The notes below the pieces were generated by a model that saw only the letters and a program-made list of their open reading frames with translations, searched no databases and had not been told where the DNA came from. This document shows, in pieces, positions 55,533 through 62,909 of a stretch of DNA of 64,000 nt. The translations under genes were made by a program, and so were the position numbers. How positions within the stretch are numbered: the stretch's first letter is position 1; every line of letters starts with the position of its first letter. Source of the stretch: Lysobacterales bacterium (GTDB lineage: Bacteria > Pseudomonadota > Gammaproteobacteria > Xanthomonadales > BPKI01); the NCBI GenBank assembly GCA_026005055.1, contig BPKI01000001.1, positions 2,003,290 to 2,067,289 of the forward strand. The letters are read 5' to 3'.

Positions 55533-56318
55533 TTAGCAGTTCGCGGAGAGCTCGGTAGAGGAACCCCCCTCGGCGGGCACCACCCCGAGCAGCGCCTCGC
55601 AGGAAACCAGGCTTTCCAGGGCAGGACGGCCCATGGCCAGGAATGCGGGAGTCGGCTGGCGAAGAACTTCGGCCAGGGCCAGGAGATGATCGCGACCGCT
55701 CGCGCCAGGGTGCTCGCGGATGCGCTCAAGCAGCGCTGCCGTCCACGGCGCAACCTCGTGGAACCGAACTCGGTCGTCGCGACCGCGCAGCACCAGCAGA
55801 TAAGTGGGCGGTCCCGGCGGCTCCTCTTGCTCCGGTGGAGAACTGAGACGGTGCACCGGCCAGCGATAGCACAGGACGCAACTGACGGGATTCGCTACCG
55901 GCGCGCCCGAAAAGGGATCGCCGGCGACCGCTTTCACCGAAGAGAGCTCGGTCGGATCCATCGCGAGGGCGAGCTCCACCCACTCATAGTGGGCCAGCTC
56001 GCGCAGCCACTCCGGGGTCCCTTCGCGCTGACCGAGGAAAAGGAGGAACTCCTCGGCGAGGCGAGGGAAATACGGGGTAAGGCAGCGATGCTTAGCGAAG
56101 AACCCCTCGACCAAGGCGCGAAATCCGGCCTCGCCGAGGAGCCGCCGGCACACCGGGAAGTTCCCGGCGAGCAGGCTCTCGATATTGCGCAGGAAAAGCT
56201 CGCGATAGAGCGCAAGCCGCTCCGCCGCCATGCCCGCCGGCGGCGGCGAGTGCGCCGGATCACGGAGATGCCGCGCGAAAGCGATCAGCGGAGCGAGCGG
56301 ATCAGCGCCCGCCCTCAT
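55533..56318 (-). CDS. hvfC: DUF2063 RiPP partner protein (HvfC/BufC-like)
   Basis: 261 residues from the ATG at 56318 (ATGA overlap with hvfB). The N-terminal DUF2063 region is clear: '[45 protein letters not shown]' followed by '[12 protein letters not shown]' and '[12 protein letters not shown]'. In known systems this protein binds the precursor leader and helps the DUF692 enzyme work. The C-terminal ~100 residues are less conserved and hold two Cys ('VSCVLCYRW'). 10 bp before rnt. Confidence 0.9.
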
Positions 56319-57151
56319 GCACTGAACCCCGATCGCTGAAGGATCGAGCGCGCCCGCGAGGCTTCGGCCAGCAAGGCGGAAAGCGGCGGCAGGTGGAAAT
56401 CGCGCTCGATCACGGTCGGCCGCGGCCCGATGGTCTGGCAGGTCCATTCGAAGAGTGCCCAGACCGGCTCCGGAACCGCCGCCCCATGGGTGTCCACGAG
56501 CAGATTCTCGGCCTGACGGTAATGACCGGCGAGGTGGTAGTAGACCACACGCTCGGCGGGCAATGCCGCGATGAAAGCGCGCGGGTCGTAGCCGTGGTTG
56601 ATGCTGTTGACGTAGACGTTATTGACGTCGAGCAGCAGATCGCAATCCGCTTCGGCCAGCACCGCCGTGAGGAACGCCGCTTCGCTGAGCTCGCCGCCGA
56701 GCGCGCCGTAGTAGGAGATGTTCTCGATTGCGATCCGCCGCCCGAGCACGTCCTGAACCGCGCGAATGCGAGCGGCCGTGTGGGCGACGACCTCGGCGGT
56801 GAAAGGCAGCGGCATGAGGTCATAGAGCTGCGCGCCCTCCGCCGAGGTGGCGGCGAGATGGTCCGAGTAGATACGAACGTCGTGCTCTTTCAAGAAAAGG
56901 CTCACCTCGGCAAGCAGCGTCGAATCCAGAGGATCCGGCCCGCCGAGGGAAAGCGACAAGCCATGGCAGACCAGCGGAAAGCGCTCGCCGAGCGCGGCGA
57001 GACCCCTGCCCCAGCGGCCACCGACGCCGATCCAATTTTCCGGCGCGAGTTCGAGGAAGTCGGGACCGCCTTCGGCTAGGGCGAGCAGCGAGGAAAGATG
57101 AGGGCGGCGCAGGCCGATCCCAACGGCAGTGGCCGGCAACGCCGCCCTCAT
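56315..57151 (-). CDS. hvfB: DUF692/MNIO peptide-modifying oxidase (HvfB/BufB-like)
   Basis: 278 residues from the ATG at 57151. TIM-barrel multinuclear iron oxidase family (UPF0276). Likely metal ligands and family motifs are all present: 'GIGLRRPH', '[11 protein letters not shown]', '[11 protein letters not shown]', 'YSDHLAATS', 'IENISYYG', '[19 protein letters not shown]', 'HLAGHY', '[13 protein letters not shown]' and '[11 protein letters not shown]'. In characterised relatives such enzymes turn precursor Cys into oxazolone-thioamide or thiooxazole groups. Ten bp after the Cys-repeat precursor gene and overlapping hvfC, so the substrate is evident. Confidence 0.93.
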
Positions 57152-57161
57152 CGGCTGACGG

Positions 57162-57464
57162 TCAAGCGCTTCCGCACTTGCCCTCGCCGCACTTGCCCTC
57201 CCCACACTTCCCTTCCTCGCCTTTGTCGCCCTTGTCGCCCGACTCGCCGCCGCATCGCCCTTCCCCGCACTTCCCTTCGCCACACTTCCCTTCCTCTCCC
57301 TTCTTCTCCCCCTCCTGCTCGCCGTGTTCGGAGAGGAGATAACCCTGTTCCAGCGATACCAGCGAAAAGCCGCTTTGCGCCGAGGCCTCGGATGAGGGGA
57401 AGAGCTGACCCGCAAGCGCCAAACCGAGCGCCGCGGCGAGCGTGTTGAGCTTGTTGTGCGCCAT
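57162..57464 (-). CDS. hvfA: Oxazolin-type RiPP precursor with six EG(K/R)CG motifs (HvfA-like)
   Basis: 100 residues from the ATG at 57464, with GGAGG 8 bp upstream; the track start at 57638 has no support. Sec signal peptide '[26 protein letters not shown]' with cleavage before QSGF. A ~30-residue polar linker is followed by two clusters of three motifs, [15 protein letters not shown] and [15 protein letters not shown], separated by a Gly/Asp/Lys spacer; the end is SA. The six Cys are the only Cys of the protein. EGKCG is the modification motif of HvfA of Haemophilus, where the Cys become copper-binding groups. The protein should be modified by HvfB/HvfC and exported. Confidence 0.92.
57171..57293. 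repeat. Two clusters of three 15-bp repeats encoding EG(K/R)CG
   Basis: On the plus strand the units read like GCCGCACTTGCCCTC. Three units lie at 57171-57215 and three at 57249-57293, separated by 33 bp coding for the Gly/Asp/Lys spacer. The units have diverged at third positions, so selection on the protein motif, not recent slippage alone, keeps them. Confidence 0.9.
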
Positions 57465-58529
57465 GATCGACCTCCATAGTGAACGAGCAACAGCCGCCCC
57501 GACAGCGCGGGACAAACTCAGCCTACGCCGGCCGGAGAATGCGCTCAAGCCTGAGGCGGAATCGAGGACCCTCGGCTCTCGGGTGATCGGATGCGGCGGT
57601 CCGTCCGAGGGAGCCTCGGCAAGGGGCAACGGGATCACCGCCGTCGGATGAGCGCAGCGCCCGGCGAGGGTTTTCGGTCGAAGCGAAAGCCTTCGCGGAA
57701 ACCGACCGAGGCCCTGCGAAAGCGCGTCCTCCCGCGTTCGCGGCAGGCGTTCATGCTGGGCGTTTTGGAAGCCGCGTCCCTGCGGCTCGCGGTCTGCCCC
57801 AAGAGCAGACGGGCAAAGCCATTCGCGATTCCGGAAACCTCAGCAGGAGGCGCGCTGGCGCGCTCGGCAGCAGACTCAAGCTCGCGCCACGCACCGCCTG
57901 AACGTGGAAAGCGCTCATGCTCCCGACCGCACAACAGTCGCCAGGCGGCCTTCGCTCGCGCCTGAGCCCACCGATGCTTGCAATCTGAGGACGGGACCTT
58001 CGCCCTGCGTCCAAGAGGGAAACTCCCTGCGCCTCGGGCTTACGTATGGCACCGGTGTTTGCCGGTGGCGACCTCCGCCGCCCAGCCCATCGGCGCGAGG
58101 CGCATCCTGACCGGGGCCCGGACGATCGAGGCGCCGAGGGTCGAACCCTGCCCTCAGCCTCGCGGCAGAGCGCGAGAAGCCTTGCCCCTTGCCCCGAGCC
58201 GAGTGGAAAAATAGCGCCCCAGCCGCGGGATTCGAGCCTTCAGCCGCGCGAGAAGGGTTCGCGCACGGGGCTTCCAAGACGTCGCCAGTGAGTCGGTCGC
58301 TTGCCGCCGACCGCCCGCCGAGCCGCGTTGCAACGCGAGAACCGACGATGCGAGACCGCCGAGGCATCCTGCCATCCGCGCTCGCCCCACCTCGCTTGCT
58401 GGTGGAGGGTCCCTTGGGCCGATTTCTGACGGTGCTCCTTCACCGCGACTCGGTGTCGCCATGGATCCCCTCGCCGATCCGTTCGACGCGCATGACCCCC
58501 TCGGCCGAGGGCGCCGAAGGTCTCTTCGA
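57465..58529. other. 1-kb gap without recognised gene
   Basis: Between the hvfA start and the nth stop. It must hold the hvf operon promoter, but I could not settle on a -35/-10 pair. The several overlapping ORFs give Arg/Ser/Pro-rich translations with no family likeness. A CACCGG-TGTTTG-CCGGTG hairpin lies at 58050-58067, without a T run. No tRNA or known RNA signature seen. It may carry degraded repeats or a lost gene. Confidence 0.55.
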
Positions 58530-59186
58530 TCATTCGGCCTGGGCCTGAGCCGCTCGTCTCGAGCGCCTTGCGTGCGCACAGAGATCGTTCACCGGGCAGC
58601 TTTCGCACTGTGGATCGCGAGCGCGGCAGATATAGCGCCCGTGCAGCACCAGCCAATGGTGGGCGTGCCGGCGGTACGGCAGCGGCACGCGCCGGAGGAG
58701 CTTCGACTCGACCTCGAGCGGCGTCCGCCCGGGGGCAAGGCCTGTCCGATTGGCCACCCGGAAGACATGGGTGTCCACGGCGATCGCCGGCTCGCCGTAA
58801 AGAGTATTGAGTAAGACGTTGGCGGTCTTGCGTCCCACCCCGGGCAGGGCTTCGAGTTCCTCGCGCCGATGCGGAACCTCGCCCCCGTGCCGCTCGATCA
58901 GCATGCGGCAGGTGGCGATGAGATGCTTGGCCTTGCTGCGATAAAGCCCGAGGCTCGCGATCCGCTGCGCAAGCCCCTCTTCCCCGAGCGCGAGCATCGC
59001 CGCTGGCGAGGGCGCCTCGGCGAAGAGCGTCTCGGTGACCTTGTTCACCTGGCGGTCGGTGGACTGCGCCGAGAGCACCACCGCGACCAGAAGCTCGAAA
59101 GGGTTTCGGAAGCGAAGTTCGGTACCGGGCTCGGGGTTGCGCTCCGCGAGCCGACGGAAGAATTCCAGCCGTTCCTTCGCCCTCAA
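58530..59186 (-). CDS. nth: Endonuclease III
   Basis: 218 residues from a TTG at 59186 that overlaps the rsxE stop (TTGA). The alignment with E. coli Nth begins exactly there ('RAKERLEFFRRLAERNPEP'), and the longer track start lies inside rsxE. Removes oxidised pyrimidines (glycosylase/AP lyase). 'LLVAVVLSAQSTDRQVNKVT', HhH 'LEALPGVGRKTANVLLNT' with catalytic Lys, catalytic Asp in 'AIAVDTHVFRV', and the 4Fe-4S cluster 'CRARDPQCESCPVNDLC' (C-x6-C-x2-C-x5-C). rsxE-nth is also the E. coli order. Confidence 0.95.
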   Translation of the reverse strand: MRAKERLEFFRRLAERNPEPGTELRFRNPFELLVAVVLSAQSTDRQVNKVTETLFAEAPSPAAMLALGEEGLAQRIASLGLYRSKAKHLIATCRMLIERHGGEVPHRREELEALPGVGRKTANVLLNTLYGEPAIAVDTHVFRVANRTGLAPGRTPLEVESKLLRRVPLPYRRHAHHWLVLHGRYICRARDPQCESCPVNDLCAHARRSRRAAQAQAE

Positions 59187-59836
59187 GCGGGCACCGCCGC
59201 GCTGGCGCGCTGGCGCCGACGAAGGCTCTGTACGGCCGCCAGCAGGAACGCGAGCAAGAAAAAGCCTCCTACCGGCAGCAGCGCGGGCAGGAAACCCCGA
59301 TAAGCGGGCATCGGACCGACTTCCAGGAACGCGGCCCAAGGTCCGAGCAAGAGCCCTGCATCGGCGAAGAGCGTCCCCCTCGCGATCAGCTCGCGCAAAG
59401 CAGACAGCGCGAGCAGGGCCCCCGCGAAGCCGAGCCCCATGAACAGGCCATCGGCGAGCGCCGCGCCGAGCCGATGGCGCGAGGCATACGCCTCGGCGCG
59501 GCCGAGCACGATACAGTTGGTGATGATGAGCGGCAGGAACAGGCCGAGCACCCGGTCGAGTTCAGGAAGAAAGGCTCGGATCAGCAGCTCGACCGCGGTG
59601 ACCAGGGAGGCGATCAGCAGCACGAAGGCCGGCAGCCGAATCTCGGGCACGATCAGCCACCTGAGCGCCGCGACCAGGCCGTTGCTCAGGACCAGGACGA
59701 GGATGGTCGCCAAGCCGAGCCCGAGGGCGTGCGTCGCCGTCGTGCTGACGGCGAGCAATGGGCAAAGTCCGAGCAGCTGTCCCAGCGCGGGATTGTTCTC
59801 CCAAAGACCCTGGCGGGCGGCTTCCCGAGCGCTCAT
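59183..59836 (-). CDS. rsxE: Rnf/Rsx electron transport complex subunit E
   Basis: 217 residues from the ATG at 59836 (an adjacent ATG at 59839 is equally possible). Six hydrophobic helices: 'WENNPALGQLLGLCPLLAVSTTATHALGLGLATILVLVLSNG' is the NqrD/RnfE signature, followed by 'LPAFVLLIASLVTAVELLIRAFLPELDRVLGLFLPLIITNCIVLGRAEAYA' containing 'LIITNC'. RsxE is part of an Na+/H+-coupled ferredoxin:NAD oxidoreductase that in E. coli also keeps SoxR reduced. The other subunits (A, B, C, D, G) are not next to it: the upstream neighbour is divergent corC. Confidence 0.92.
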   Translation of the reverse strand: MSAREAARQGLWENNPALGQLLGLCPLLAVSTTATHALGLGLATILVLVLSNGLVAALRWLIVPEIRLPAFVLLIASLVTAVELLIRAFLPELDRVLGLFLPLIITNCIVLGRAEAYASRHRLGAALADGLFMGLGFAGALLALSALRELIARGTLFADAGLLLGPWAAFLEVGPMPAYRGFLPALLPVGGFFLLAFLLAAVQSLRRRQRASAAVPA

Positions 59837-59911
59837 CATCAGGAGTATAGCGCGGTCCGATGCCACGCCTTCCGCTATAGTGTTGGGGCCGGAAGGCTTC
59901 TTCCATGCGCG

Positions 59912-60766
59912 ATGAGCGACGATTCCAACGGCAGTAGTCCATCGCCGAAACGATCCTGGTTCGAACGACTCGGACAGGCCCTCTCGGGCGAGCCACGCAA
60001 CCGAGAGGAATTGCTCCAGGATCTCAAGGACGCGGCCGCCTCGGGGCTGATTCCCAACGAGGCGCTGGCAATGATCGAGGGGGCGATCGAGGTCTCCGAG
60101 CTCAAGGCGGAAGACGTCATGGTGCCCCGCGCCCAGATCGTCTCGATTCCGGTAGATGCCTCGCTCGATGAGATCCTCGAGATCGTGGTCGAATCGGGTC
60201 ATTCCCGCTTCCCGGTCCATGGCGAGGACCGCGACGACATCCTCGGCATCCTGCTCGCCAAAGACCTCCTGCGCTGCTTCCGCCGGAACGCCCCGCCCTG
60301 CGATCTGCGCGCCCTCATCCGCCCGGTGATGCGCATTCCGGAAAGCAAGCGCCTGGACCGGCTCTTGCGCGAGTTCCGGGAGAAGCGCTCGCATCTGGCG
60401 ATCGTCGTGGACGAATACGGCGGCGTGGCGGGGCTCATCACCATCGAGGACGTGCTCGAGGAGATCGTCGGCGAGATCGACGACGAGCACGACGAAGGCG
60501 AAGAGAGCCGCCCGCTCATCGTTCCCCGCGAGGACGGCCGCCGCTACTTGGTGGACGCCCTCACCCCCATCGACGTGTTCAACGAGCGCTTCGGCTGCGA
60601 CTTCAGCGACGAGGAGTTCGACACCGTCGGCGGGCTGGTGACCGATGCTCTCGGCCATTTGCCCGAAGTCGGCGAGGAGGCGCGCATCGGCCGCTTCCTG
60701 TTCCGGGTGGCGCGCGCCGATCAACGCCGGGTCCAGGCCCTCGAAGTCGAGCTCGCCGCCGAGTGA
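59912..60766 (+). CDS. corC: CorC/YbeX-family CBS protein
   Basis: 284 residues from the ATG at 59912; the track start reads antisense through rsxE. Soluble, no membrane segment. Acidic start, then a CBS pair ('VMVPRAQIVSIPVDASLDEILEIV', 'HLAIVVDEYGGVAGLITIEDVLEEIVGEIDDEHDE') and a CorC_HlyC domain ('FGCDFSDEEFDTVGGLVTDALGHLPEVGEEARIGRFLFRV'). Linked to Mg2+ efflux and, as YbeX, to ribosome maturation. The next gene overlaps by GTGA. Confidence 0.93.
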   Translation: MSDDSNGSSPSPKRSWFERLGQALSGEPRNREELLQDLKDAAASGLIPNEALAMIEGAIEVSELKAEDVMVPRAQIVSIPVDASLDEILEIVVESGHSRFPVHGEDRDDILGILLAKDLLRCFRRNAPPCDLRALIRPVMRIPESKRLDRLLREFREKRSHLAIVVDEYGGVAGLITIEDVLEEIVGEIDDEHDEGEESRPLIVPREDGRRYLVDALTPIDVFNERFGCDFSDEEFDTVGGLVTDALGHLPEVGEEARIGRFLFRVARADQRRVQALEVELAAE

Positions 60767-61926
60767 GGGCGGGCCTCCTCCTGCTGACGCTGATCCTTCC
60801 CTGCGCGGGTAAAAGCACCGAGATTGAGCTCATCACCATCGGCCCGGGCACGGAGTTCTGGAGCGTCTTCGGCCACAACGCGCTGCTCCTGCGGCAACAG
60901 GACGGCCGCGCGCTGATCTACAACTTCGGCGTCTTCGATCCGGAGGAGCCCGGTTTCCTCGGCCGCTTCCTGCGCGGCGAGCCGATCTACCGTCTGGAAG
61001 CCTGGCCGGCCTCGGTGCTGGCGAGCTATCGCGCCGAAGGGCGACGCATCGAGCGCCAGCGCCTCGGCCTCACCCCCGAGCAGGCGGATCGCCTCGCCGC
61101 GAAGCTCGCCGAAAACGCGCTTCCCGAGAATGCCGCCTACCGCTACCACTACTTCCGCGACAACTGCTCCACTCGCGTGCGCGATGCCCTCGATCAGGCC
61201 CTCGATGGATTGCTGCGACGCGACGGGAGCAGCCGCTCGCGCGGCCTGAGCTATCGCCACCACGCCCTGCGCATGAGCGCGGCGCACCCTTGGCTCTGGG
61301 CAGCCATCGACCTAGGCCTCGGGCAGCCCGCCGACCGTCCGCTTTCCCTGTGGGAAGAAAGTTTCCTTCCCGAGCTGCTCGCAGCGCACATCGAGCGGCT
61401 GAGGGAGAGTGGACTCCTCGCCGCCGGACCTCCCGAGGCGATCGCCGAAGGGACGCTGCCGTCTGCGCCCGCCTACCCGCCGGATCCCTTGTTCGGCTTC
61501 GCGCTCGCCGGGGGAATCTTCGCCGCCGCCCTGCATCTTAGCCTTCGCCGCCCGCCGCGCAGTTTCTGGCGTCGTGGCAGCATCGTCTTCCTCGGTGTCT
61601 TCTTCTTGCTCACCGGCCTTGCCGGCATCGCCCTGGCCTGGCTCTGGCTGGGCAGCCATCACGATTTCGCCGTCCGCAACGAGAACCTGTTCCTCCTCCA
61701 TCCCTTGAGCCTTGGTCTCCTCGCCGCTCTGCCCGCCCTCTGGCGCGGCGAGCGTCCCGTGCTTCCGCTCCGGCTGCTGGCAAGCCTCGCGGCAGTCCTC
61801 GCCGTCTCAGCCCTCCTGCTCAAGGGACTGCCTTCGTTTTCTCAGCCCAACCTGCACTGGATCGCGCTCCTGGCACCGATCCATCTCATCGCCGCCCTCG
61901 CCATCTCCCGCGAACCGCCATCATGA
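60763..61926 (+). CDS. DUF4105 (Lnb-like) membrane protein
   Basis: 387 residues from the GTG overlapping the corC stop. Short N-terminal signal ('LLLLTLILPCAGKS'), then a periplasmic DUF4105 domain (about residues 20-180) with 'WSVFGHNALLL' and 'YFRDNCSTRVRDALDQAL', the His and Cys of a papain-like site. The C-terminal ~145 residues have about five hydrophobic segments and a loop 'GSHHDFAVRNENLFLLHPLSL', matching the SxHP...NxNLL..HPL pattern of Lnb-type proteins. Lnb N-acylates lipoproteins in Bacteroides, replacing Lnt. Placed directly after corC, where E. coli has lnt, and overlapping corA. The activity is inferred. Confidence 0.78.
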   Translation: MRAGLLLLTLILPCAGKSTEIELITIGPGTEFWSVFGHNALLLRQQDGRALIYNFGVFDPEEPGFLGRFLRGEPIYRLEAWPASVLASYRAEGRRIERQRLGLTPEQADRLAAKLAENALPENAAYRYHYFRDNCSTRVRDALDQALDGLLRRDGSSRSRGLSYRHHALRMSAAHPWLWAAIDLGLGQPADRPLSLWEESFLPELLAAHIERLRESGLLAAGPPEAIAEGTLPSAPAYPPDPLFGFALAGGIFAAALHLSLRRPPRSFWRRGSIVFLGVFFLLTGLAGIALAWLWLGSHHDFAVRNENLFLLHPLSLGLLAALPALWRGERPVLPLRLLASLAAVLAVSALLLKGLPSFSQPNLHWIALLAPIHLIAALAISREPPS

Positions 61927-62909
61927 GCCCAACGCCTCGAGGTCTGGTCAACGCCTTCGCCTACGACCGCCGCCACGGCAACCGGCGAGCCGTCTCGCTC
62001 GAGGAGCTGCCCGCGGTCATCCTGAAGCCCGATGTCTTTCTCTGGCTTGGGCTCTACGAGCCGGAGGCCGAACTGCTCGAGAGGCTCAAAGCCCTCTTCG
62101 GCTTGCACGAGCTCGCACTCGAAGACGCGCACAAGGCCCATCAACGGCCCAAAATCGAGCGTTACGGCGAGATGCTGTTCGTCGTCCTGCATACCGTTCA
62201 GTTTCAGGAAGGCGAGCCGAAGCGCGGCGAGACTCATCTCTTTGTGGGACCGCATTTCCTGATCAGCGTGCGCCATGGCGCGTCCCTTTCCTATGCACCG
62301 GTGCGCGCCCGCTGCGAGGCCGATCCCCGCCTGCACCGGCACGGACCCGCCTTCGCGCTCTATGCCATCTGCGACTTCGTCGTCGATCAGTACCTGCCCG
62401 TGGCGGAAAGCTGCGAACGCGAGCTGGAAAGACTGGAGGAGAGCATCTTCCAGCAGGCCATGAGCCGCGCCACCGTGCACCGCCTCTACACGCTCAAGAA
62501 GCGCCTGCTCGAGCTCAAGTTCACGCTGGCGCCGATGCAGGACGTCCTCGCCCAGCTCACCCGCGGCCACGAGCCCTTCGTGCCGCCGGCGATGCAACCC
62601 TACTTCCGCGACGTGCTCGATCACGCCCAGCGGGCCGCGAGCACCATCGACGCCGTGGCCGATCTGCTCGGCTCGGCGCTGCAGGTGAAACTCGCGCTCG
62701 TCACCGTCGGCCAGAACGAAGTGGTGAAGAAACTCGCCGGCTGGGCCGCGCTGGTCGCCGTCCCGACGCTGGTAGCGAGCTGGTACGGCATGAACTTCGA
62801 GCACATGCCCGAACTCTCCGAGCCGCTGGCCTACCCCATCCTCACCGGCGCCGTGGCGCTCGTCGTCGCCGCGCTCTACGGGTTGCTAAAGCGCGCCGGA
62901 TGGCTTTAG
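61923..62909 (+). CDS. corA: Magnesium/cobalt transport protein CorA
   Basis: 328 residues; ATGA overlap with the DUF4105 gene. Large cytosolic domain ('LFGLHELALEDAHKAHQRPKIERYGEMLFVVLHTV'), long stalk helix, then two C-terminal membrane helices bordering the signature 'YGMNFEHMPEL' (GMN loop). Passive Mg2+ channel of the inner membrane. Third gene of corC-DUF4105-corA. Confidence 0.95.
   Translation: MSPTPRGLVNAFAYDRRHGNRRAVSLEELPAVILKPDVFLWLGLYEPEAELLERLKALFGLHELALEDAHKAHQRPKIERYGEMLFVVLHTVQFQEGEPKRGETHLFVGPHFLISVRHGASLSYAPVRARCEADPRLHRHGPAFALYAICDFVVDQYLPVAESCERELERLEESIFQQAMSRATVHRLYTLKKRLLELKFTLAPMQDVLAQLTRGHEPFVPPAMQPYFRDVLDHAQRAASTIDAVADLLGSALQVKLALVTVGQNEVVKKLAGWAALVAVPTLVASWYGMNFEHMPELSEPLAYPILTGAVALVVAALYGLLKRAGWL

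Follow-up and report, generated by a model that had tools for sequence, protein, structure and literature searches.

Genes at the lnb locus

The stretch of DNA analysed here, 64,000 nucleotides in length and hereafter referred to as the window, carries a homologue of lnb between corC and a corA-like gene. The features of this locus are as follows.

59900..60766, + strand: corC (ybeX), directly upstream of lnb (CBS, CorC_HlyC and NMB0537_N domains)
60763..61926, + strand: lnb homologue, Lnb (former DUF4105) family, 387 amino acids (Pfam, NCBIfam NF051878, AlphaFold2)
60763..60810, + strand: predicted N-terminal signal sequence MRAGLLLLTLILPCAG (by eye: hydrophobic core after MR, with the periplasmic domain next)
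60814..61482, + strand: predicted periplasmic permuted NlpC/P60-like catalytic domain, residues 18-240, with His38 and Asn134-Cys135 (Lnb_N match at 18-149, invariant residues, weak Foldseek matches)
61489..61908, + strand: five-helix membrane domain (AlphaFold2 helices 243-261, 268-296, 314-327, 334-355 and 364-382)
61923..62909, + strand: corA-like Mg2+ transporter gene, directly downstream of lnb (PF01544, 194 bits)

An earlier note on this DNA, made from the letters alone, had placed an Lnb-like ORF directly after corC. That ORF (60763-61926, + strand) is real, and the CBS and CorC_HlyC domains confirm its neighbour as CorC. The start codon of lnb is GTG and overlaps the corC stop codon by four bases (GTGA, 60763-60766), whilst its 3′ end shares a four-base ATGA with the corA ORF, which begins at 61923. 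Overlap between corC and lnb was also seen at loci L019 and L024 (Pfam). Divergent from corC-lnb-corA is an ordinary rnf-nth pair on the minus strand (58530-60001), consisting of an RnfE-type Rnf-Nqr subunit and then endonuclease III. Also on the minus strand (55533-57638) are an MbnB/TglH/ChrH-type RiPP enzyme (PF05114), a DUF2063 partner and a repeat-rich short ORF, a gene set with the appearance of a peptide operon of the bufferin type (copper-related).

Domains, motifs and predicted structure of the Lnb homologue

The same note had assigned to the protein a DUF4105 periplasmic domain with the motifs FGHN and RDNCST, and a C-terminal membrane domain of the Lnb type with the pattern SHHD...NENLFLLHPL. 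Both domains were recovered by Pfam above their cut-offs, Lnb_N at 68.1 bits (cut-off 22.2) and 5TMH_Lnb at 32.0 bits (cut-off 25.2), and the motifs lie at residues 36-39, 132-137 and 299-315, respectively. Neither LNT_N nor CN_hydrolase was found in the protein by Pfam. The NCBIfam Lnb equivalog NF051878 matched residues 17-321 (model positions 27-333 of 394) at 151.4 bits against an equivalog cut-off of 550 bits; this cut-off serves to name close orthologues and is not a defining part of Lnb, and under it orthologous function is not guaranteed.

Alignment of 62 homologues showed H38, N134, C135, H300, N306 and P314 to be invariant, and the matches to the Lnb motifs are therefore not due to chance. 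Every member of this set scored above the cut-off for Lnb_N (62/62) and was matched by NF051878 (62/62), with 5TMH_Lnb above its cut-off in 60/62. The His and Cys of the permuted NlpC/P60 fold are present as H38 and C135, whose catalytic label is assigned from the NlpC/P60 superfamily (PMC12994826).

The AlphaFold2 model, built on the 62-row alignment, has a mean pLDDT of 95.1 and a pTM of 0.90, and shows five membrane helices after an alpha/beta domain at residues 18-240. The loop joining TM2 and TM3 (residues 297-313) contains the invariant His300 and Asn306. In the model, the loop charges (positive-inside) fit a location of both this loop and the N-terminal domain on the periplasmic side. 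A sequence search of the PDB found no solved Lnb structure. Foldseek matched the catalytic domain to TseH, CLN5 and Aichivirus 2A (best E 0.0097, query-normalised TM 0.23); these matches are weak but coherent, and are the sole sensible fold matches. We take the folds of CLN5 and Aichivirus 2A to be related to the NlpC/P60 superfamily, and PMC12994826 places TseH among the enzymes of that superfamily.

Absence of Lnt from the window's genome

The genome from which the window comes (G000) is a single contig of 2.44 Mb, is 99.96% complete and is the sole member of its family in the comparison set. The earlier note had called for a search of the full genome for lnt. A profile search that was positive in E. 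coli and six other genomes found no LNT_N domain in this contig, nor did the genome contain an Lnt-type CN_hydrolase; the Lnb homologue thus belongs to a genome without Lnt. Six places in G000 do match CN_hydrolase, and were named by eye as an N-carbamoylputrescine-amidase-like protein, an omega-amidase-like protein, two other nitrilases, NadE and a TAT-type soluble nitrilase. Each was read individually as a possible hidden Lnt and rejected, LNT_N being found in none. The genome encodes one Lgt (named by TIGR00544) and one Lnb_N protein.

Distribution of Lnb and Lnt

The order concerned, Lysobacterales (Xanthomonadales), includes Xanthomonas, Xylella and Stenotrophomonas. It was placed by named matches to the family profile, namely Luteimonas, Lysobacter, Dyella, Rhodanobacter, Stenotrophomonas, Pseudoxanthomonas, Thermomonas and Dokdonella. 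Beyond the order, named matches came from Gemmatimonadota and one Phycisphaerae bin.

Within the order, Lnb_N was found in 38 of 41 genomes. The three that lack it (G005, G016 and G018) are exactly the three of the 41 with a strong classical LNT_N (94-117 bits), an association with a Fisher p of ~1e-4 when phylogeny is ignored. Thirteen order genomes had an LNT_N match of some kind, and in 10 of them it was only weak (best 27-64 bits). Counting any LNT_N match as Lnt was considered and rejected, as these scores are weak, the long proteins among them read Cys-Leu-Asp at the Cys-Tyr-Glu motif, and none of those examined lies beside corC.

Across a class sample of 274 genomes, LNT_N was present in 249, and full-length Lnb was confined to the three genomes of the same order, all of which lack LNT_N. 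A six-frame search with 5TMH_Lnb proved too insensitive in Gammaproteobacteria (5/274), and therefore the A1 profile was used instead for the Lnb census. In the main family, Lnb was present in 146/150 genomes, and in 135/136 when only good genomes are counted; we identify this family as Lysobacteraceae because G001 and G012 group with Stenotrophomonas and Pseudoxanthomonas in the tree. In three of its genomes (G361, G415 and G468) Lnb is apparently in two pieces, which may be sequencing errors or real breaks. Moreover, strong LNT_N occurred in none of 40 named Lnb genomes (best 68 bits), and there was no LNT_N match at all in the seven from Gemmatimonadota and the Phycisphaerae bin. These counts support the use of Lnb for Lnt as a feature of the order Lysobacterales and not of one strain, which is a larger claim than the earlier note had made. 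The link to Xanthomonas comes from the cited papers and the 150-genome Lysobacteraceae sample, and not from a Xanthomonas locus identified by name.

The gene slot after corC

Comparison of all loci by tblastn gave 107 entries (~103 distinct loci without repeats) in which lnb immediately follows corC, and corA comes next after lnb in 43 loci. Nearly every proteobacterial copy of lnb has corC immediately 5′ of it. No corC is upstream of the lnb of Gemmatimonadota, Phycisphaerae and one MAG labelled Steroidobacteraceae. Outside Lysobacteraceae, corC is likewise directly upstream of lnt in six of the seven CYE-type Lnt loci from the order and class, and lies 458 bases off in the other (L039). Two of the six (L037 and L038) are from Lnt-keeping genomes of family f6, in the same order as the window's genome, and the remaining four (L054-L057) are from class genomes with the best LNT_N matches of the sample, where classical lnt follows corC. 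As corC precedes both lnb and classical lnt, including within the same order, we infer an in-place exchange of Lnt for Lnb. Within the order the Lnb tree, from which Bacteroidota rows are absent, broadly tracks families, which suggests that the exchange is old. Taken together, comparisons of sequence and gene order support a reading in which Lnb would have replaced Lnt in place, and anciently, in Lysobacterales. The earlier note had left open replacement of Lnt or an addition to it; replacement is the option supported, given a window genome without Lnt and the exchange seen at this one slot throughout the order.

Lnb without an adjoining corC was observed in Gemmatimonadota and the Phycisphaerae bin (L066, L080, L099, L101, L104, L108, L126, L131 and L132). 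The eight searched genomes of these loci contained no LNT_N, and therefore the use of Lnb for Lnt seems to reach beyond Bacteroidota and Lysobacterales.

Proposed function and alternatives

We consider it very likely that the gene encodes a lipoprotein N-acyltransferase of the Lnb type, and that in an ancestor shared by most Lysobacterales this enzyme took over the position of Lnt next to corC. This reading is based on homology to Lnb in both domains, the conserved catalytic residues, the absence of Lnt together with the presence of Lgt, and the exchange of the two genes in one slot across the order. Catalysis is predicted to fall to Cys135, activated by His38, in the papain-like (permuted NlpC/P60) domain of the periplasm. 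The cysteine would form a thioester with an acyl chain taken from a membrane phospholipid. Once Lgt and LspA had acted on an apolipoprotein, its lipid-modified cysteine would receive this chain on the alpha-amino group. Lipids would be brought to the active site by the five-helix domain and the periplasmic loop with His300 and Asn306. A triacylated lipoprotein would result, as from Lnt, but through an unrelated fold.

An alternative is that lipoproteins here are not N-acylated but remain diacylated, and that the DUF4105 protein has another membrane role. Diacyl anchors have been inferred in print for X. campestris B100, in which Lnt was not found, in the relevant passage of a paper on LolA/LolB structure (PMC10368991), and the distant homology to Lnb (151 of 550 bits) leaves room for such a reading. 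That passage does not, however, mention Lnb, whereas a two-domain Lnb homologue occupies the lnt slot and, in the order sample, is found in precisely those genomes that lack classical Lnt; its retention in all but one of the good Lysobacteraceae genomes also argues for an important function. We therefore regard diacylation as improbable.

A second alternative is that the protein, as a membrane-bound acyltransferase or hydrolase of the permuted NlpC/P60 type, has a substrate other than lipoproteins (phospholipids in remodelling, peptidoglycan or some other amine) and that an undetected enzyme N-acylates lipoproteins. The fold superfamily does contain lipid and peptidoglycan enzymes (TseH and others), and a survey of papain-like proteins, judging by genomic context, proposed that DUF4105 has a role related to transport (PMC10318531). 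Against this are the slot exchange and mutual exclusion with Lnt, the lack of any Lnt-type protein in G000, and the presence of 5TMH_Lnb, a domain described for Lnb proteins; a different substrate thus appears unlikely.

About a quarter of Lysobacteraceae carry a divergent protein with LNT_N and CN_hydrolase, mostly of 820-970 amino acids and with a C-terminal extension (L040-L047, L152-L154, L157, L158 and L173-L175). These proteins retain the E-K-C triad and the equivalent of Glu343. In nearly all of the long proteins checked the Cys-Tyr-Glu of Lnt is Cys-Leu-Asp, and once Cys-Arg-Asp; both Tyr388 and Glu389 of E. coli Lnt are essential by mutation (PMC5500888). On these sequence features we judge that the divergent proteins are not classical Lnt. 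That they are nevertheless the real N-acyltransferases of the order, with Lnb an accessory, would accord with their domains and triad, but is so improbable as to be set aside: any LNT_N match occurs in only 42/150 Lysobacteraceae (a strong one, of 94 bits, in a single genome) and in G000 not at all, the motif essential in Lnt is altered, and corC adjoined none of the divergent genes at the loci examined. In addition to Lnb, one Lysobacteraceae genome (G450, locus L172) encodes an Lnt of the CYE type (94 bits), at a distance from corC, and is a natural double carrier.

Returning to the N-acyltransferase reading, we think it quite likely, from the distribution and placement of these genes, that most Lysobacterales and the sampled Gemmatimonadota N-acylate their lipoproteins with Lnb and not Lnt, lnb occupying the post-corC slot of lnt in Lysobacterales, and that the published diacyl inference for Xanthomonas is wrong.

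Implications

The absence of lnt has been noted before: it is among the missing BUSCO genes in Xylella and two Xanthomonas (PMC7828034). Displacement has also been described, since the relevant passages of a 2026 paper (PMC12994826) report three genomic contexts in which Lnt is the protein by which those with DUF4105 are ‘repeatedly displaced’; those passages name neither corC nor Xanthomonadales, and the idea of the swap itself is therefore already published. Our literature search found no paper connecting Lnb with the missing Lnt of Xanthomonas or Xylella. Lnt is regarded as an essential and almost universal enzyme of Gammaproteobacteria, and as a target for antibiotics. That Xanthomonas and Xylella lack it has so far either gone unexplained or been taken to mean that the third acyl chain was lost, a gap that a non-homologous enzyme in the same slot would resolve. 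If this is true, the lipoproteins of the order are predicted to be fully acylated, against the published diacyl assumption, and inhibitors of Lnt are predicted to be inactive on Lnb in Lysobacterales. The locus would moreover offer a clear example of how an essential enzyme of the cell envelope can be replaced in place by a non-orthologous one.

Comparison with known systems

Lnb is the lipoprotein N-acyltransferase of Bacteroides, where alone its activity has so far been shown according to the passages concerned (Armbruster et al. 2024, via PMC13251419 and PMC12994826). The Bacteroides enzyme (PF13387 and PF25221, NF051878) resembles the window protein in having a periplasmic papain-like domain followed by a five-helix membrane domain, a catalytic His and Cys, and a genome without Lnt. 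Unlike it, the window protein has a gammaproteobacterial host, is fixed between corC and corA, and at ~151 bits against the 550-bit cut-off would not be named Lnb by the NCBI rule. Lnt, a member of the nitrilase superfamily with LNT_N and CN_hydrolase, shares with the window protein its predicted reaction, cell location and the slot after corC, but differs in having an unrelated fold and active site, with an E-K-C triad and the Cys-Tyr-Glu motif. In DUF4105 and permuted NlpC/P60 lipid enzymes such as TseH, Tox-Act1, LRAT and CLN5 the catalytic His precedes the Cys in sequence, as in Lnb, and TseH and CLN5 have weak fold similarity to its periplasmic domain. Several permuted NlpC/P60 lipid enzymes are secreted effectors or eukaryotic enzymes, and we know of no five-helix Lnb membrane domain or link to corC among these four. 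Lysobacterales is a new taxonomic home for a known kind of enzyme, and not the source of a new kind.
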